A DNA stretch of 33,668 bases from an uncultured Chloroflexota bacterium. GTDB lineage: Bacteria > Chloroflexota > Chloroflexia > Thermomicrobiales > UBA6265. The translations under genes were made by a program, and so were the position numbers. How positions within the stretch are numbered: the first letter of the stretch is position 1; each line of letters begins with the position of its first letter. The DNA is taken from assembly GCA_937870845.1 (NCBI GenBank), contig CALMZR010000227.1, positions 1 through 33,668 of the forward strand, read 5' to 3'. Below are positions 20,565 through 31,279 of this stretch, piece by piece. The notes beneath the pieces are model-generated. The model ran no database searches and was not told where the DNA came from. It saw only the letters and a program-made list of their open reading frames with translations.

Positions 20565-20590
20565 GCGCGTGGCGCTTCGACGCCACGCGC
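20565..20590. terminator. Bidirectional hairpin between convergent genes
   Basis: GCGCGTGGCG (20565-20574) and CGCCACGCGC (20581-20590) pair perfectly around CTTCGA. It lies between the DinB-like stop and the NicO stop and abuts the latter. Confidence 0.6.
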
Positions 20591-22137
20591 TATAACCGCT
20601 GCAACTCCAGCACCGCCCGCGCCACGATCAACACCCCGGAGGCGGTGACGGCCAGGGCGGCGACGGCCGGGGCGAACTGCAAGAGCCCGGACCAACGCCC
20701 CGCCAGCGCCCTTTGCTCCAGCAATCGTCCGGCATAGAGGAAGAGCAGCCCCACTCCGGTCAGCGTCGCGGCCAGGCCGAGGCTGAAGGCGATCACCACC
20801 AGCACCCCGAAGCCGGCCCGGCCGACGGCGACGGCGCCCAACAACGCCAGCAACGCCGAGGGGCAGGGCAGCAATCCCCCGGAGATGCCCAGCGCCAGGA
20901 GATTGCGCCAGGTGATCCGCTCGCCGTCCACGCCGGGGGGCAGGTGGCTGTGGCTGTGCCCGTCAGGAGCGTGGGTGTGCGCGATGCCGTGCGCGTGGGC
21001 GTCGTCATGGTCATGGTGATAGTCGCTGTCGTGCGGGTGATCGTGGCCGTGGTGATGGTGGCCGAAAGCGGGGAGGCCGAGGAGCCGCTGGCGCAGGATG
21101 GTCAAACCGAGCGCGGCCACCAGCAGCCCCGAGACGAGGCTGAGCCAGGGGTAGAGCTGCTCGGGGAGGATCGTGCGTGAGGCGAAGAGGATGATCAATC
21201 CGAGCGCCAGCACCCCGGCGGTGTGGGTGATCGTCACCGTCAGTCCGAGGAAGAGCGCGTGACGGGGCGTGCCGCGGCTGCCGACGAGGTAGGCGCCGAC
21301 GACGGTCTTGCCGTGGCCCGGCGAGAGGGCATGCATGGCCCCCCACGCGGCCGCCGCCAGCAGGGCGAGCGCGATGCCGGTGGTGGAGAGGTCGCCGCCG
21401 TTGACGACGGCCCCGAGACGCTCGCCGATGCCGGCTGGCCGCGGCGCTTCGTCAGGGGCCTTGCCGTCCGATGTCGGGGCGCCGAGGGCGAGCTCGTAGG
21501 CGAAGACGACCGATCGTTCGTCGAGCGGGCTGCTGAGCAAGTCGTTGGGGTAAACGCGCAAGGCGTCGGAGTGATCGACGGCCAGCGCCGCGCCGTCGGC
21601 GACGCGAATGTCGGGACCGTTGGTGACGACGATCTCGCGCCAGCCGAGCCGATCCGCCGCGTAGTCGTTGCGGTAGGCGATCCGCCCGCCGTCGCCGGCC
21701 GCCGGCAGGTCGGCGGCGAAAGTCGCATCGATCCGGGTGATGTCCAGGCCGGCCTGCCCGGGGAGGAACGTCAGCGACCGCGACAGGAGCTGCAGCGGCA
21801 GCTCCGACGCGTCGAGAGAAAGGCGAAGCCCCGGCATGACCTCGGCGAGCTTGGCGTCGAGGTACGCCTCGCGTTCGGCGACCCCGGCGTTGCCATCGCC
21901 GTCGCCGTCGAGCAGCGGCTTGTCGGCAACCGTCGGCAGCTCGGCCAGGTCGAGGACGTAGGACAGCCGCACCTCGCGGCGGCCGACGTCGATCCGGCTG
22001 TACTGGTTGACGGTGAAATTGCCCAGGGGATGCGCGGCAGCGGGCGGCGCCGGCGTCAGCGTGAGCAGCGCGGCCAGGGAGACGGCCGTCGCGAGCACCA
22101 ACCGCGCGACGAATGGCAGACAGCGGCTTGCATTCAT
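20590..22137 (-). CDS. NicO/RcnA-type Ni/Co permease with secreted N-terminal domain
   Basis: The 515-residue protein overlaps the TPR gene by ATGA (22134-22137). Residues 1-35 are a signal peptide (AAAHPLGNF junction). Residues 36-245 form an extracytoplasmic domain starting AHPLGNFTVNQYSRIDV; it contains a calcium-type EF-hand loop, DGDGDGNAGVAE at 77-88. From 250 on is a NicO permease: MHALSPGHGKTVVGAYLVGS (268-287), VTITHTAGV (301-309), a His-rich loop (360-398) with about 17 His, and GISGGLLPCPSALLALL (417-433). The family exports or imports Ni or Co. It is the last gene of a DUF4331-TPR-NicO unit. Direction of transport is not decided by sequence. Confidence 0.85.
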   Translation of the reverse strand: MNASRCLPFVARLVLATAVSLAALLTLTPAPPAAAHPLGNFTVNQYSRIDVGRREVRLSYVLDLAELPTVADKPLLDGDGDGNAGVAEREAYLDAKLAEVMPGLRLSLDASELPLQLLSRSLTFLPGQAGLDITRIDATFAADLPAAGDGGRIAYRNDYAADRLGWREIVVTNGPDIRVADGAALAVDHSDALRVYPNDLLSSPLDERSVVFAYELALGAPTSDGKAPDEAPRPAGIGERLGAVVNGGDLSTTGIALALLAAAAWGAMHALSPGHGKTVVGAYLVGSRGTPRHALFLGLTVTITHTAGVLALGLIILFASRTILPEQLYPWLSLVSGLLVAALGLTILRQRLLGLPAFGHHHHGHDHPHDSDYHHDHDDAHAHGIAHTHAPDGHSHSHLPPGVDGERITWRNLLALGISGGLLPCPSALLALLGAVAVGRAGFGVLVVIAFSLGLAATLTGVGLLFLYAGRLLEQRALAGRWSGLLQFAPAVAALAVTASGVLIVARAVLELQRL

Positions 22138-23543
22138 GACGTTACCCCTTCAGCCTGGAGTTGCGCCAGCGTGGAGCGGGCCTCGGGCCCAAAGCGGACG
22201 GAAAAGTACGGGTTGAGCTCCAGGGCAGCCTGGAGCTGGGCAATCGCCTCGTCGGTCTCGCCGCGGGCTGCGGCGATCATCCCGGCGTGGAAGAGCATCA
22301 TCGCGTTGCGGGTACCGAGGCGAAGGGCCTCCGCGCTGGCGGCGGCGGCGCCCTCGAAATCGCCGCTCCGGTACAGCGTCCAGGCCAGAACGTCCCAGGC
22401 AATGACGCTTGGACGCGTGGCGACGACGGCGCGCGCCTGCTCGACGGCTCGGGGCAGCGCCGCTGAATCGCCGTAGTCGGCGGTAAAGAGGGCCAGCTCC
22501 AGGTCGGTATCGACGCCGTTCGCCGCGTACAATTGCTGGATCGCCTCGACCAGCGCGTACTGGGCCGCCGCGTCCCGCGGCCGGCCGGCGGCGTCGAGAA
22601 CATCGCCGTAGGCGACGACGAACTCGGGAAGCGGAAGAATGGTCACAGCCCGGCCGTACAGCGCCGCGGCCGCCTCGAGATCGCCTCGCGCGGCGGCGAC
22701 GCGGGCCTGCCCGGCGAGCGCCGGCGCGAAGTTGGGCAGCGCCTCCGCCGCGGCCGCGTACTCGCGCTCGGCGCCGGCCAGGTCCCCGCCGTCGAAGCGC
22801 AGGTTGCCGAGCTGGACCTTGACCCAGGCGATGTTCTCAGCGTAACTCGCGCCGGCGGTCACCGCCTGCTCCATCGCCAGGAGCGCGCCATCGCGGTCGC
22901 CCATCAGCTCGCGCAGGTAGGAGACGCGGGAGTAGGAGGCCAGGTCCGGGCGAAGGTCGACCATCGCCTGCACGGTCGCTACCGCGTCGTCGTAGCGGCC
23001 AAGCTCGACCTGGGCATCGCCGACCACCCCCAGCGCCGGGGTGTGGCGCCGATTGAGGGCGCGCGCGCGCTCCCCCCAGTCGAGCGCCTCGGCGAACTGA
23101 TGGCGGGCCATGGCCAGCACGCCCAGGCCGACGAGCGCGTCGACGTTGTCGCCCTGGACCTCCAGGGCTTGCGTGAAGAGCGCCTCGGCTTTCGGGTAGT
23201 AGCCGGGATCCCCCGTTTCGCGCGCCTTTTGCAGGTACGCCTGCCCGAGCATGACGGCGACGGAGCCGGCGGCGCGCTCGTCGCCGCCTCGCAACGCGTC
23301 CTGCAGGGCGAGAATGCGCCCATCGAGCGATGCCGACGTCCGGGCGGTGCGCCCGACCAGGGTGTCCATCGCCGATGGCCCCTCGTCGCCAAGGATGCCC
23401 GCCCCGGACGCGTTGTCCAGCATCGGCCGCATGTTGAGCGCGCCGGAGACGAGTGCGGCCGCGGCGAAGACCGCCACGACGAGCCGGGCGAGCGGCCCTA
23501 CTGACGTGTGCTTCCTGATGCGATTCGTTCCCGCCATGGCCAT
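22134..23543 (-). CDS. Membrane-anchored TPR protein
   Basis: The start is ATG 23543 or ATG 23537; GGAAGG fits the second better. The about 469-residue product has a short basic start, one membrane segment at about 18-37 (LARLVVAVFAAAALVSGAL), then several tetratricopeptide-type helical pairs (for example AEALFTQALEVQGDNVDALVGLG, FAEALDWGERARALNRRHTPALG, YDDAVATVQAMVDLRPDL, and IAQLQAALELNPYFSVRFGP). It most likely faces outside as a protein-binding scaffold. Its 3' end overlaps the NicO gene by ATGA, and two hairpins separate it from the DUF4331 gene upstream. A role as partner of the other two products is inferred from order. Confidence 0.85.
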   Translation of the reverse strand: MAMAGTNRIRKHTSVGPLARLVVAVFAAAALVSGALNMRPMLDNASGAGILGDEGPSAMDTLVGRTARTSASLDGRILALQDALRGGDERAAGSVAVMLGQAYLQKARETGDPGYYPKAEALFTQALEVQGDNVDALVGLGVLAMARHQFAEALDWGERARALNRRHTPALGVVGDAQVELGRYDDAVATVQAMVDLRPDLASYSRVSYLRELMGDRDGALLAMEQAVTAGASYAENIAWVKVQLGNLRFDGGDLAGAEREYAAAAEALPNFAPALAGQARVAAARGDLEAAAALYGRAVTILPLPEFVVAYGDVLDAAGRPRDAAAQYALVEAIQQLYAANGVDTDLELALFTADYGDSAALPRAVEQARAVVATRPSVIAWDVLAWTLYRSGDFEGAAAASAEALRLGTRNAMMLFHAGMIAAARGETDEAIAQLQAALELNPYFSVRFGPEARSTLAQLQAEGVTS

Positions 23544-23624: not shown

Positions 23625-25397
23625 TTAGCCCGTGATCTCTCCACAGGCGACGTACTCGGTGATGTTCTCGGCCGACTCGTGCGCGTTGATGGCGTACTGG
23701 TCTCCCAGCAGCTCGTCGATCGTCAGGTCGACGGTCGTCTCACTCATGCCTTCGGCGTCGATGTCGCTCAGCGCGGCCGCGACCTCACCCAGGACGGCGC
23801 ACGTGCCGAAGTGAATGTGGACCGGGTGCCCGCCCGTGGCGCCCTCGACCATCAGCGACACTTGCGTGCCGCCGTCGGTCTCGGTCAGGGTCCCTTCGCC
23901 GCTGAGACCCGAGGCGCTCAGCTCGTTCAGGGGAACGGTGAGCGAGCGCATCTCCGGCGCCGCGGCCTGGGCCGATTCCGCGCCCCCGCCGGTCATGGCG
24001 TGGTGCAGGTGCTCGAAGCCCTGGTGCGGGGTGCCCACGTAGGGGAACTCAGCCAGGAACGGCACGTCGTTGGCGGGGACGCCGTCGCCGAGTTGGCCGT
24101 TGGCGGCATTTTGAAACTCCTCGCCAAGGAGGAAGCCCGCCGCCACGCGCAACTCGATGTCGACGACCTCGTCTTCCAGCCGGCGGCCGTTGGGGAAGCC
24201 GGCGTTGTCGCCGCCGATCACGCCGAGCGGGTTGACCGTCTCGGCCGGCGGGATGCCCATGTTGAGCCGCAGCATCTCGCTGGGGGTCACGGTCGGGAGC
24301 TGGTTCAGATCCGGGACGCCCGTCAGGAAGACGGTCACCAGATCGTCGCGGCCCGATTCCGGCACCGGCTGCAGCGCATCGCCGTAGAGGAGATTGAGCA
24401 GCCTGGCCAGCTCTGGATCGGTGACGGCGCCGAGGAACTGGGCGTCGTTGCCGGGGATCGAGGAGTTGAAGAGATCCTTCGCCCCCAGCGGGGCCACGAC
24501 CTCGTTCACCAGCGGCATGCCAAGGCGAGAAACCTGGACCAGCGGGCCGGAGGATGCCTTGGCGCCGGGACTGAGGACGGTGGTCGAGTTGCGCAGGGCC
24601 GTCGTCCAGACGCCGATGACGGCGTTGCCGGCTTCGGCCCCGGAGACGGCTTGCGCGTCATGGGTCAGTTGCTCGATCGGCGCCTTGAGGGCGAGGGTCT
24701 GGACGTTGAGGCCCGCCAGGTCGTCGACGCCGCCGCCGGCGTTGCCGGGCAGCTCGCGGATGGTGAGCAGGTCGCCGACGCCGCCGAGATCGACCCAGAA
24801 CGGATCGTCACGCTGGCCAGCGAAGACGGTCACGCCGTCGCCGACCTCGAAGACGGCCTCGGCGGCGAGCGCCTCGTAGTCTGGGGTCGACTTGGGCCCG
24901 ATGTTGACCGGCGGGGTCATCAGCCCGCTCGCGATCTCGGTCAGGACGCCGCCGCGCCCCTCGGAGAGGGTGTAGGTCTGGCGGATGTTGAGGTTTTCGC
25001 TGTCGAGCGATTCGATCGGCCCGGAGTTGTAGAGGAAGGAGTCGGGATTGGCGATCTCGGTCGAGAAGTTCCACTGGTAGAGGATGTCCTCGACCGCATC
25101 GCCGTTGTTGTCGATATTGATGCGGTAGGTGACGTCGTCGCCGAAGCGGTAGTAGTTGGGGAACCCGGCCGGATCCTGCATCGGGTAATAGTTGGCGATG
25201 AGGGTGACCGTGCCCGGGTCGTCGGGGCTCACGAAGGCGTAGAGGTCGGTGGCGTCGGCCACCGGGTCCTGGCTGATGAGCGGGGCTTCCCGGTGACTGG
25301 CGGCGTCGCTTGGCGACGCCCCGAGGTTGAACACCGAGGAGACCCCGACCAGGGCCGCGAGGGCCAGGCCGAGGTGGGATGCGGTACGCATGTTCAT
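23625..25397 (-). CDS. Secreted DUF4331 protein with C-terminal CHRD/SOD-like module
   Basis: ATG 25397 has GGAGA 8 bases upstream on the minus strand; the longer frame to 25514 is not supported. The 590-residue protein has a signal peptide (residues 1-32), then the DUF4331 hallmark SHREAPLISQDPVADATDLYAFVSPDD (34-60). The DUF4331 domain runs to about residue 470, with repeated beta-rich segments (FGDDVTYRINIDNNGDAVED, SRLGMPLVNEV). A distinct C-terminal part from about 495 (GGHPVHIHFGTCAVLG ... YAINAHESAENITEYVACGEITG) resembles CHRD or Cu/Zn-SOD-like modules with possible metal-binding His. The function of DUF4331 is unknown. The gene heads the DUF4331-TPR-NicO operon under an ECF-type promoter. 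Confidence 0.88.
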   Translation of the reverse strand: MNMRTASHLGLALAALVGVSSVFNLGASPSDAASHREAPLISQDPVADATDLYAFVSPDDPGTVTLIANYYPMQDPAGFPNYYRFGDDVTYRINIDNNGDAVEDILYQWNFSTEIANPDSFLYNSGPIESLDSENLNIRQTYTLSEGRGGVLTEIASGLMTPPVNIGPKSTPDYEALAAEAVFEVGDGVTVFAGQRDDPFWVDLGGVGDLLTIRELPGNAGGGVDDLAGLNVQTLALKAPIEQLTHDAQAVSGAEAGNAVIGVWTTALRNSTTVLSPGAKASSGPLVQVSRLGMPLVNEVVAPLGAKDLFNSSIPGNDAQFLGAVTDPELARLLNLLYGDALQPVPESGRDDLVTVFLTGVPDLNQLPTVTPSEMLRLNMGIPPAETVNPLGVIGGDNAGFPNGRRLEDEVVDIELRVAAGFLLGEEFQNAANGQLGDGVPANDVPFLAEFPYVGTPHQGFEHLHHAMTGGGAESAQAAAPEMRSLTVPLNELSASGLSGEGTLTETDGGTQVSLMVEGATGGHPVHIHFGTCAVLGEVAAALSDIDAEGMSETTVDLTIDELLGDQYAINAHESAENITEYVACGEITG

Positions 25398-25645
25398 GAC
25401 CGATGTCTCCTCTGCGACGGCGGCGGCCACCCCTGTGGCGCCGCCCGGCCCGGCGCACGCCGGGGCCGCGGTGATCCGCGGTGAGCCGCGGCGATGCCAC
25501 GACCCACGCCGCATCTCGGGGGCGATCTGCCGCCGCCCGGGCGCGGCTGCCGGGGCAGCGCGCCCAATTCCGGTCCGTGCATGCGAAGGTCCTTTCCGGT
25601 CCCTGCGCTGCGCGACAAGCAGCCTGTGGATCCACGTCGCCCGGT

Positions 25646-25674
25646 CATACGGGTCGCACTGGTGTGTTGGATCA
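25646..25674 (-). promoter_or_regulatory. ECF-type promoter for the DUF4331-TPR-NicO operon
   Basis: On the minus strand, TGATCCAAC (25674-25666) is followed after 14 bp by CGTATG (25651-25646). The first three bases are the stop codon of the ECF sigma gene. The same two blocks stand before the sigma gene itself (GGAGCCAAC, CGTTGC) and before the secreted gene at 26580 (TGATCCAAC, CGTATC). The leader to the DUF4331 ATG would be about 240 nt. Confidence 0.6.
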
Positions 25675-26337
25675 ATTGGATGTGGCGGAGCCGGGCGTGG
25701 CCGGTTCGCCGAGGTCCTGGCGGAGACGCCGCAGGCCGAGCCGGATGCGGCCCTTGACCGTCCCCAGCGGGGTCTGCGTCATCTCGGCGATCTGGCCGTG
25801 GGTCAGGTCGGCGAAGTAGGCCAGCTCGATGACGCGGCGCTGGGGCGCCGGCAGCTTGGCCAGTGACGCGCGTAGCCGCCGCGCGTCCGCGGCCATGACC
25901 GCCATGGCCGCAACGTCGTCGTGATGCTGGGAGACGGTCTCGGCCCGGTAAAGCGCCGCTTGGCGGCGCTGCGCGAATTGGCCCGAGCGCAGGCGGTCGA
26001 GCGCCGCGTTGCGGGTGATCGCCACGATCCAGGCCTTCGCGGTCCCGCGGTCAGGGCGAAACGTTCCTGCGGATGTCCAGACGCGGAGGAACGCGTCGTG
26101 GACGACATCCTCGGCGGCGCATGGATCGCGCAACAAGGCGAAGGCGGCCGCGAACGCATCGCGTCGGTAGCGCACGAAGAGCCGGTCCAGGGCGGCGGGG
26201 TCGCCCGCGACGAAGGCCTCGATCAGCGCGTCGTCGTCGCCGGCCTCGATACACTCCGGCACGCGGTCGCCAGCGCGGCGGCAGGCGCCAGGCATGGGTC
26301 CGGATTCCAGGGTCGCGTTCGACATGGGGGTGAGCAC
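25672..26337 (-). CDS. ECF sigma factor (sigma-70 family, SigK/SigL-like)
   Basis: GTG 26337 follows GAGGAGG by 6 bases; ATG 26325 is too far from any site. The 221-residue protein has an unusual 40-residue N-terminal extension, then sigma-2 (about 50-118: LFVRYRRDAFAAAFALLRDPCAAEDVVHDAFLRVW...WIVAITRNAALDRLR) and sigma-4 (about 155-207: LPAPQRRVIELAYFADLTHGQIAEMTQTPLGTVKGRIRLGLRRLR). It lacks a sigma-3 domain, as expected for ECF factors. No anti-sigma gene lies beside it. A promoter of the same type as those of its neighbours sits just upstream, implying autoregulation. It likely controls the DUF4331 operon and the 26580 gene. Confidence 0.9.
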   Translation of the reverse strand: MLTPMSNATLESGPMPGACRRAGDRVPECIEAGDDDALIEAFVAGDPAALDRLFVRYRRDAFAAAFALLRDPCAAEDVVHDAFLRVWTSAGTFRPDRGTAKAWIVAITRNAALDRLRSGQFAQRRQAALYRAETVSQHHDDVAAMAVMAADARRLRASLAKLPAPQRRVIELAYFADLTHGQIAEMTQTPLGTVKGRIRLGLRRLRQDLGEPATPGSATSN

Positions 26338-26361
26338 GATCGGCCTCCTCGACGGGCACGC

Positions 26362-26390
26362 GCAACGGATGGGTTCGCATCGTTGGCTCC
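26362..26390 (-). promoter_or_regulatory. ECF-type promoter for the sigma gene (autoregulation)
   Basis: On the minus strand, GGAGCCAAC (26390-26382), a 14-bp spacer and CGTTGC (26367-26362) precede the GTG start by about 25 bp, a normal leader length with the ribosome site at about 26344-26350. Confidence 0.5.
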
Positions 26391-26440
26391 GAGCCTAGAG
26401 GTCTGACGGCGCGGGCGCGTCGGGATTGATGCCGGGCGGA

Positions 26441-26463
26441 AAACCGGGAAAATTCCCAGGTTT
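26441..26463. repeat. Imperfect palindrome in the divergent sigma/secreted-protein gap
   Basis: The left arm AAACCGGGAA (26441-26450), a centre of AA and the right arm TTCCC-A-GGTTT (26453-26463) pair with a single bulged base. It lies between the two divergent ECF-type promoters and could be an operator. Confidence 0.4.
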
Positions 26464-26492
26464 CTTCGGGGCGTGTGTCGTGTACGATCTGA

Positions 26493-26520
26493 TGATCCAA
26501 CGGGGATGACGCCACGTATC
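26493..26520 (+). promoter_or_regulatory. ECF-type promoter for the secreted protein at 26580
   Basis: TGATCCAAC (26493-26501) is followed after 13 bp by CGTATC (26515-26520). The ATG is 60 bp downstream. The -35 block is identical to that of the DUF4331 operon promoter. Confidence 0.6.
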
Positions 26521-26579: not shown

Positions 26580-27098
26580 ATGGGTGGAGGATATCGTCGC
26601 CTGGCGCGGCAAATGACCGCGGTCGCGCTGATTGCCGCGAGCGCGCTTCTCGGATTGGCCGGCCTGGGGATCGGATCAGCCAGCGCGCAGGAGGGGTGTC
26701 AGACGCCGTTTCTGGTCTTTACCGACCCGGCCAATCCGGGGACGACCTCGCAAAGCGGCGACATCGCCGTGACGCGCGACAGCGGTCTGCTGGGGGACTA
26801 TCGCGGCAATGGGCGCTTCGCCGGCTACGCCATCGACGGGGCGCAGAACGCCATCGTCAACACCGCGACCGGCATGGCGCGGGTCCAGGGCGAGTTCGTC
26901 GCCACCAGTCCGGACGGCGCCTCGTCGATCACCGTCTCGTACACGGGGCAAGTCGATTTCGGGGCCGGCATGGCGCGCGGGAACTTCGTGGTCGTGGGCG
27001 GAACCGGGGACGACGCGGGCTACCGCGCCTCGGGGACGATCGAGGGGACCGTGGTCGCGCCAGCCACGCTGGAGGGGGCGGATATCGGGCTCTGCTAG
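26580..27098 (+). CDS. Small secreted beta-rich protein (allene oxide cyclase-barrel-like)
   Basis: ATG 26580 follows GAAGGAGG. The 172-residue product has a signal peptide (residues 1-36, VALIAASALLGLAGLG...SASAQ). The mature part is strand-rich: SQSGDIAVTRDSGLLGDYRGNGRFAGYAI, NTATGMARVQGEFVATS, SSITVSYTGQVDFGAGMARGNFVVVGGTGDDAGYRASGTIEGTVV. The pattern of 'G.G.. G.Y.. .G.G' resembles small barrels such as allene oxide cyclase-like or DUF3224-like families; this is a loose impression. It has two cysteines in the mature part (EGC and the last residue). Its promoter is of the same type as that of the ECF sigma gene and the DUF4331 operon. Confidence 0.75.
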   Translation: MGGGYRRLARQMTAVALIAASALLGLAGLGIGSASAQEGCQTPFLVFTDPANPGTTSQSGDIAVTRDSGLLGDYRGNGRFAGYAIDGAQNAIVNTATGMARVQGEFVATSPDGASSITVSYTGQVDFGAGMARGNFVVVGGTGDDAGYRASGTIEGTVVAPATLEGADIGLC

Positions 27099-28860: not shown

Positions 28861-31215
28861 TCAGACCTCGATGAGACCCCGGGTGTAGGCGATGCGGACG
28901 GCGTCGGTGCGGTTCTGGGCCCCCAGCTTGTCCAGCAGGTTGGCGACATGGTACTGGGCCGTCTTGGCGCTCGTGCCGAGCGCGGCGGCGATCTCCTTGT
29001 CGGCGAGACCCTGGCCGATCAGGCCCAGCACCTCGCGCTCGCGCGGGGTGAGGCGCTCGGCCTGCACGAGGGCGCCGGCCAGCTTGCCGGCCACCAGCGG
29101 GGTGAGGTAGGTCCCCCCGGCGCCGACCGTGCGCACGGCGGCGGCTAGCTCGTCGCCGCTGGCGTCCTTGAGGACGTACCCCTGGGCGCCGGCGCGCAGG
29201 GCCTGCAAGACGAGTTCGTCCTGGGCGAAGGTGGTGACGACGACGATGCGCGTCGGGATGCGGGCGCGGCTGAGGCGGGCGATGGTCTCGACGCCGCCCA
29301 GCTTCGGCAGCCGCAGGTCGATGAGCGCCACCTCCGGCTGCAAGGCGGAGACCATGCGCACGCCTTCCTCGCCGTCGCCGGCCTGGCCGATGACGGCCAG
29401 ATCCGGTTGCGCGTCGAGCAGAGCGGCCAGTCCGGCGCGGGTGGCGGGATGGTCGTCCACCACCACGACACGGAACCTGGCCGACGCGGGCGCCGTCGGT
29501 TCGGGACGGGGCTCGGGCGGCGGCGCGGGATACGGCATGGCGGCGACGATGGTCGTGCCGGCGCCGTTGCCGGGGCCGCTGCGGACGTCGAGGGTTCCGC
29601 CGAGCTGGCGGAGGCGCTCGGCCATGCTCGAGAGGCCGAAGCCGCCGCCTTGCTTCGAGTGGCGCCCAACCGAGGCGGGATCGAAGCCGCAGCCGTCGTC
29701 GGCGACCGCGAGCGCAACGCCGCTGTCGCGAAACTCGAGGCGGACCTCGATGCGCGAGGCCCGGGCGTGCTTGCGGGCGTTGGCGATCGCTTCTTGCGCC
29801 ACGCGCAGGAGGGCGAGTTGAACGTCGGCGGCGAGGGGCCGGGCGGTCCCGGAGACGACGAGGCGGCAGGGCATGCCGGCGCGGCCGGGATCGGCCTCGG
29901 CGCCCAACGCCTCGACGAGCGAGCCGGTCTCCAGCGCGGCGGGGCCGAGATTCCAGACGGAGCGACGGGCCTCTTCCAGCGCGGCGCGGGCGTTGGCCTC
30001 GGCGGCGCGCAGCTCGGCGTCGGCGCGGGCGGGGTCGTCAGTGACGAGCCCGCGCGCGGCGCGGATCTGGAAGGTCAGGGTCAGCAGCGATTGGGCGAGG
30101 GTGTCGTGGATCTCGCGCGCCAGGCGGTTGCGCTCCTCGGCGATGCCAAGGTCGTGGCTGGCCGCGTAGAGGCGAGCGTTTTCGATGGCGACGGCCGCAT
30201 GCTTGGCGAGGTTCCCGAGCAGCTCGATCTCACGCTCGCCGAAGCGGCGTTCCGGGTCGGCGGCGGCGACACCGAATGTGCCGACGATGTCGCCACGCTG
30301 CCAGATGGGCACGGCGATCCACGGGCCCAGGGCGTGGAACGCCGAGTCCGGCAGCGGCGCCGAAAGCTCGTCGTAGCGGTCCAGGATGACTGGGGCGCGG
30401 CGGGCGATGACCTCGCCCATGAGCCCGGCGCGGGATGGGATGCCGCGCGTGGCCAGCTCCTCCGCGTCGAGGTTGTGCGTGGCAACGAGGCGGCGGGGGG
30501 CGTCGAGATCGGCCCCGACCAGGCTGATGGCCCCGGCGTGGGCATCGAGGAGGGAGACGGCGCTGGCCACGACCCGCGCCAGCAGCGCCTCCAGATCGAG
30601 CTCGGAGGAAATCGACTCGACGACCTCGCGCAGCGCGGCGAGGTGGTGCAGGGCGTCGCTCAGCTCGCGGTTCTGGGTGGCCAGGTCGCGGGCGGCGTCG
30701 GTTTCGCTCCGTAGCGCGGCGTCGCGTTCGATCTGGGAGGCGATCATGCGCGCCAGGATGCGCATGGCGTCGACCTCGCTCTGGCCGAGCCCGAGCACGC
30801 GGCGGTCGTGGGCGCAGAGGGTGCCGAACACGCGGCCGTCTCCGAGGAGGATGGGCACCGAGATATAGGAGCGCGTGCCGACGAGCTGCTTGCCGGGGAG
30901 GGCGATCCAGCGAGGGTCGGCGTCGGCGTCGTGGACGACGAGCGGGGCCAACGTTTTCAGCACGGTGTCGCAGAAGGTGTCGACGCGCCTGATGACCACC
31001 GGCGGCGTGATGCCCAGGCCCATACGGTCGCAGGCGTGGGAAACGACGAGCGTGTCGCCCTCGAGGCGGTGGATCATGGTCAGGCTGATGCCGACCAGGT
31101 CGGCCACCAGGGCCAGCGTCTCGTTGATCCCCTCGTCGAGGGTAGCGAAGGGCGTGGCCGCGAACGCGGCGAGGGCCGCCAGCCGATCGGCCGGCGCGTC
31201 AGGTGCATGGGACAT
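28861..31215 (-). CDS. Single-chain two-component system: GAF-GAF-histidine kinase-REC-LuxR
   Basis: The start ATG 31215 is chosen; GTG 31230 is an alternative, and neither has a good ribosome site. The domains of the 784-residue protein are two GAF sensor domains (about 15-170 and 195-350), a NarX/DegS-type dimerisation domain with the phosphorylated His370 in AREIHDTLAQSLL, a HATPase domain (ANARKHARASRI, DDGCGFDP and GFGLSSMAERL), a Pro-rich linker (563-576), a REC domain with acidic DDH at 587-589 and phosphorylated Asp633 in ALIDLRLPK, and a LuxR HTH at 722-780 (LTPREREVLGLIGQGLADKEIAAALGTSAKTAQYHVANLLDKLG). The kinase and its DNA-binding regulator are joined in one polypeptide without a membrane anchor, so it responds to a cytoplasmic signal. 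Confidence 0.85.
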   Translation of the reverse strand: MSHAPDAPADRLAALAAFAATPFATLDEGINETLALVADLVGISLTMIHRLEGDTLVVSHACDRMGLGITPPVVIRRVDTFCDTVLKTLAPLVVHDADADPRWIALPGKQLVGTRSYISVPILLGDGRVFGTLCAHDRRVLGLGQSEVDAMRILARMIASQIERDAALRSETDAARDLATQNRELSDALHHLAALREVVESISSELDLEALLARVVASAVSLLDAHAGAISLVGADLDAPRRLVATHNLDAEELATRGIPSRAGLMGEVIARRAPVILDRYDELSAPLPDSAFHALGPWIAVPIWQRGDIVGTFGVAAADPERRFGEREIELLGNLAKHAAVAIENARLYAASHDLGIAEERNRLAREIHDTLAQSLLTLTFQIRAARGLVTDDPARADAELRAAEANARAALEEARRSVWNLGPAALETGSLVEALGAEADPGRAGMPCRLVVSGTARPLAADVQLALLRVAQEAIANARKHARASRIEVRLEFRDSGVALAVADDGCGFDPASVGRHSKQGGGFGLSSMAERLRQLGGTLDVRSGPGNGAGTTIVAAMPYPAPPPEPRPEPTAPASARFRVVVVDDHPATRAGLAALLDAQPDLAVIGQAGDGEEGVRMVSALQPEVALIDLRLPKLGGVETIARLSRARIPTRIVVVTTFAQDELVLQALRAGAQGYVLKDASGDELAAAVRTVGAGGTYLTPLVAGKLAGALVQAERLTPREREVLGLIGQGLADKEIAAALGTSAKTAQYHVANLLDKLGAQNRTDAVRIAYTRGLIEV

Positions 31216-31279
31216 CAGGCTCAACCGCACGGGAACCGAACGTGGCGTCGCTTCTCACGGCGCGATCGTGTGCGGTGGC

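Follow-up and report, generated by a model that had tools for sequence, protein, structure and literature searches.

Genes at the locus

The window is the whole 33,668-nucleotide stretch of Chloroflexota DNA that was analysed. Its minus strand carries an operon whose first gene (23625 to 25397) encodes a DUF4331 protein (Pfam PF14224, E=4e-147). The likely start of this gene is the ATG at 25397, which is preceded by GAGGAG and is supported by alignment with G002, a genome of the same genus. The ~130 residues of the protein past the Pfam domain (23625-24020) have no family match. A 5' leader ~240 nt long (25398-25640) precedes the gene and is of similar length in G002. A 10-bp palindrome, GTGGATCCAC, is located at 25626-25635, just 3' of the predicted DUF4331 transcript start; it is kept in G002 and is a possible operator. 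The second gene of the operon encodes a TPR-repeat protein (22134 to 23543; Pfam TPR families), and the third, which overlaps the TPR stop codon, encodes a NicO-type transporter (20590 to 22137; Pfam PF03824, E=6e-14). TPR and NicO genes follow DUF4331 in this order in many loci of the phylum.

Also on the minus strand is the gene for a 221-residue ECF sigma factor (25672 to 26337) with Pfam Sigma70_r2 and r4_2 domains, and no anti-sigma gene adjoins it. Its best NCBIfam match is the SigK subfamily, where it scores 141 bits and the cut-off is 226, a result that denotes similarity and not formal membership. With ECF domains and SigK as its best match, it is placed here in the group of SigK-like sigmas. 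The plus strand carries a gene for a putative secreted protein of 172 residues (26580 to 27098), whose N-terminus resembles a signal peptide by eye. This protein has no match in Pfam or NCBIfam and no homologue among 60 relatives. Further along the window, at 28861-31230, a single-chain protein combines two GAF domains, a histidine kinase, a receiver and a LuxR domain. A related gene directly adjoins an RskA-less sigma gene in the genome G010 (locus L218), and this protein is a candidate regulator of the orphan sigma.

Probable promoters before the operon and the secreted-protein gene

A preliminary description of this DNA proposed matching ECF-type promoters before three transcripts: the DUF4331 operon, the secreted-protein gene and the sigma gene. 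All three strings that it gave occur at the positions reported, and the -35 block before the operon does start within the stop codon of the sigma gene. Site 1, the predicted promoter of the DUF4331-TPR-NicO operon, is found on the minus strand at 25648 to 25674, with TGATCC as the -35 element (25674-25669), a spacer of 17 and CGTA as the -10 element (25651-25648). Site 2, the predicted promoter of the secreted-protein gene, is found on the plus strand at 26493 to 26518 (TGATCC 26493-26498, N16, CGTA 26515-26518), at a distance of 61 nt from the downstream ATG at 26580. Both have TGATCC and CGTA separated by 16-17 nt, upstream of a gene and in its sense. In a matrix scan, site 1 scored 21.9 bits and site 2 scored 20.4, second best in the window. 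The two match exactly as GATCCAAC-N13/14-CGTAT, a pattern found twice in the window and in none of 100 shuffles. A pattern search of the 5.09 Mb genome returned 3 copies, the third lying on contig C159, 63 nt 5' of the ATG of a gene for a Cys-rich protein that is putatively exported. Sites 1 and 2 thus match exactly, are well placed and do not arise by chance. Because the core is conserved across the phylum and the same promoter stands before homologous sigma genes, as described below, there is strong support for ECF-type promoters in front of both the DUF4331 operon and the secreted-protein gene. The conservation data come from the operon and from sigma genes, as the secreted-protein gene has no homologue among the 60 relatives.

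The third site fares differently. Site 3, GGAGCCAAC-14-CGTTGC, is located before the sigma gene on the minus strand at 26362 to 26390, and its membership in the motif is unsupported. It has 4 mismatches in 15 positions, a degree of likeness equalled at three further positions within the window and at 5-16 positions per shuffled window, and its matrix score is -1.7 bits. It departs even from the pattern GA[TG]CCAAC-N13-14-CGT[AT][TC] offered in the preliminary description, and it lacks the TGATCC/CGTA form. On these grounds it was rejected as a third promoter. The top-scoring site in the sigma upstream region reaches 7.3 bits, which is at chance level. The group promoter is therefore absent before the sigma gene, and autoregulation of this sigma is unsupported.

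Conservation across the phylum

DUF4331 has a strong match in 53 of 400 genomes of the phylum, and 56 DUF4331 upstream regions were usable. TGATCC-N16/17-CGTA occurs in sense in 18 of the 56 regions and in antisense in 1, against a shuffle mean of 0.05. The 18 loci span 12 families. Among 4,320 permuted dyads, this core ranks best; the runner-up (7) is the same site shifted by one base, and the next has 3. The spacing is 16 in 15 cases and 17 in 4, with no other value between 8 and 25. In G002, the DUF4331 site is found at nearly equal distance from the gene and within 20 identical bases, with no adjoining sigma gene. The motif is therefore conserved upstream of orthologous DUF4331 genes, though the strict core is absent in about two thirds of the phylum loci, including those of the same-family genomes G020, G021 and G022. 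The conserved core consists of TGATCC, then G or A, then CGTA at N16/17. The preliminary description had placed the core at CCAAC..CGT; the AAC of that block was discarded as part of the -35 core, being local to this genus and not kept outside it.

The same promoter is found before sigma genes. Among the 31 nearest sigma homologues, which are for the most part from other genera, 12 have a strict TGATCC-N16/17-CGTA no more than ~125 nt 5' of the sigma start. Behind the homologous sigma genes there is normally an anti-sigma gene of the RskA type. A SigK-like sigma gene is found near DUF4331 in ~14 loci of the phylum, most with an RskA-like gene; in several, L180 and L161 among them, the sigma gene, the RskA-like gene and DUF4331 adjoin, and each has its own site. 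The sigmas linked to DUF4331 are not a single clade in the tree, where many branches are long.

Similar arrangements are found in other phyla. Among named genomes that carry DUF4331, those of Streptomyces have a sigma gene divergent from DUF4331, and a TPR gene, and often a NicO gene, follows the latter. ATCCG-N15-CGAA is present in 10 of the 10 Streptomyces sigma/DUF4331 gaps examined (L254, L272, L278, L284, L289, L292, L293, L296, L298 and L299), most of which hold paired CCATCC/CAATCC-N16-CGAA sites, one per direction. We read ATCC-N16-CGAA as a probable counterpart of the TGATCC/CGTA promoter with another -10 element. A locus of the Acidobacteria (L238) carries ATCC-N16-CGTA.

Distribution across the genome

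Pattern searches, together with individually examined stretches, gave the genome-wide counts. TGATCC-N16/17-CGTA has 19 matches in the genome of the window, a raw count not clearly above the expectation from base composition; the reversed control pattern contains the rare CTAG and makes an unfair comparison. A match was scored as promoter-placed when it lay in a gap, no more than 250 nt before a gene on the same strand. By this definition, 10 of the 19 are promoter-placed against ~1 expected (P=1e-8), and without the two window sites 8 of 17 are (P=1e-6); these P values are rough, since the background of 5.4% was estimated on only 45 kb with a home-made gene caller. An eleventh is the C159 copy described above, which the simple gene caller missed. 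The core is thus enriched by position and not by number. With ~11 promoter-placed sites spread over the genome, the regulon is not the local one that had been proposed. The motif, its position, its conservation and its gene context are direct observations.

The other targets include a SigK-like sigma gene on contig C334, whose next gene encodes RskA_C and zf-HC2 domains. Further core sites precede a Ferritin_2 pair (C236), a 2-hydroxyacid dehydrogenase gene (C280), a molybdopterin oxidoreductase gene (C1) and genes for small exported proteins. In G002, 6 of 15 core matches are promoter-placed (P=8e-5), and five targets match those in the genome of the window. Two of these are DUF4331 and the sigma gene preceded by its promoter; for the other three, namely Ferritin_2, the dehydrogenase and a small exported protein, the pairing relies on N-terminal similarity judged by eye. 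The core before the 2-hydroxyacid dehydrogenase gene (L212:1120, L213:856) is found in the genome of the window and also in G001 and G002, both of the same genus.

The orphan sigma and its paralogue

The window sigma has no RskA-type anti-sigma gene beside it, although one is present after its homologues, and it is therefore called SigK-like and not SigK-RskA. It retains the region-4 helix of the group, PLGTVKGRxRLGLRRLR. No orthologue was found within the genus, G002 included. Its branch is long (1.29), and it groups with moderate support (92/84) with a sigma of G010, which also lacks an adjoining RskA gene. A match split between contigs C63 and C316 indicates that these may adjoin within the kinase gene of G010; if so, the sequences suggest that the G010 sigma has the same neighbours as in the window, namely kinase, SnoaL and DUF4331 genes. 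A near-core TGATCT-N16-CGTA is found before the SnoaL gene of G010. Similarity between G002 and the window starts only at the terminal codons of the window sigma gene; the final Ser-Asn-stop of this sigma is therefore promoter DNA.

The C334 paralogue is of the SigK-RskA type, and both it and its G002 orthologue have the core promoter in front. Because G002 has the sites and no orthologue of the window sigma, any sigma of the group that reads the sites of G002 would be of the C294/C334 type. In the genome of the window, both the C334-type sigma and the window sigma may read the sites. As a reader, the conserved paralogue is no less likely than the window sigma, since the latter is an RskA-less orphan and is missing from G002, where the DUF4331 promoter is kept. 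The proposal that the window sigma reads the sites is accordingly not established.

Interpretation

Sites 1 and 2 are very probably promoters of a SigK-type (ECF18/19-like) regulon that has DUF4331-TPR-NicO as a recurrent target and is read by the C334 paralogue, the orphan sigma or both. The phylum core promoter, TGATCC-N16/17-CGTA, would drive the DUF4331-TPR-NicO operon. In relatives, the sigma genes appear to have the same promoter in front, consistent with autoregulation, and an RskA-type anti-sigma gene behind. A signal beyond the membrane would free the sigma, and exported and redox-type proteins would then be switched on. The window sigma would be an orphan member of the group that lacks both RskA and the usual autoregulatory promoter, and the reader in this genome could be the SigK-RskA-type paralogue on C334, the orphan sigma, or both. 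That these sigmas recognise the sites and are controlled by an anti-sigma is inferred, as are the signal and the roles of the targets.

The repeated blocks are very unlikely to be ordinary transcription-factor operators, or a chance repeat, instead of sigma promoter elements. The palindrome just 3' of site 1 would suit an operator, but the motif has two fixed blocks, a 16/17 spacing and a strong strand bias, stands before ECF sigma genes and is identical to mapped ECF11 promoters. There is similarly little to recommend a small, local, autoregulated regulon in which the adjacent sigma is the sole reader of the three sites, the one before its own gene among them. The gene for this sigma sits between the two targets, the DNA-contacting helix of the protein agrees with that of the group, and DUF4331 and SigK-like sigma genes adjoin in ~14 phylum loci; however, site 3 does not rise above chance, the regulon extends across the genome, and G002 lacks the window sigma yet retains site 1 and five targets.

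It is a credible alternative, though short of probable, that only the C334 paralogue reads sites 1 and 2 and that the window sigma gene is a transient or decaying neighbour whose product has a different specificity. The core promoter stands before both the paralogue and its G002 orthologue, which are, like the regulon, genus-wide, and the window sigma is on a long branch without RskA or a core site. Yet the window sigma keeps the recognition helix of the group, and the related RskA-less sigma of G010 appears to keep its SnoaL and DUF4331 neighbours and the near-core site. Within the favoured SigK-type regulon, a more specific arrangement can be put forward tentatively: a cross-phylum regulon, of which the literature searched has no report, would control DUF4331-TPR-NicO, and here an RskA-less sigma gene, joined onto the operon promoter, may provide an additional reader not subject to anti-sigma control.

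DUF4331 proteins occur widely and have no known function. Their link to SigK-type sigmas, in genomes of the Chloroflexota type and in a counterpart form in Streptomyces, offers a regulatory handle for tractable organisms. It also predicts co-regulated partners, namely Ferritin_2 proteins, the molybdopterin oxidoreductase and small exported proteins. The blocks first noted in the window are very probably promoters at the level of a regulon and not of a private local circuit, which would make the window a single locus within a widespread regulon of the SigK/RskA type.

Comparison with known systems

In the literature searched, which leaves most subscription journals outside its scope, no paper names DUF4331, and no written SigK promoter consensus was found. 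A review (PMC8103513) covers orphan ECF sigma factors whose control is transcriptional and often runs through two-component systems. The window sigma resembles them in having no anti-sigma and in the hybrid kinase-LuxR gene nearby and beside the related G010 sigma; it differs in that control by the kinase is, by analogy, a candidate only.

The SigK-RskA systems (ECF18/ECF19) of Mycobacterium tuberculosis and Yersinia are autoregulated and include lineages in which RskA is absent or truncated (PMC7509140). The likeness extends to a SigK-like sigma, an RskA-type anti-sigma in relatives, autoregulation, exported targets and lineages with an absent or truncated RskA. The recurrent target differs, being DUF4331-TPR-NicO here and mpt83/mpt70 in the known system. 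The -10 element here is CGTA (CGAA in the Streptomyces counterpart), and the window sigma is without RskA.

The ECF11 sigma RpoE2 of Shewanella oneidensis, in the RpoE2-ChrR regulon, reads TGATCC-N16-CGTA(A/T)T promoters with mapped starts, and its own gene is autoregulated (PMC4336711). The promoter form, TGATCC-N16-CGTA, and the autoregulated sigma gene are shared with the regulon described here, whereas the sigmas here are SigK-like, their partner is of the RskA type (RskA_C, zf-HC2) and not ChrR, and the targets are others. The promoter type is thus already known from ECF11 RpoE2, and the link to DUF4331 is the part that may be new.
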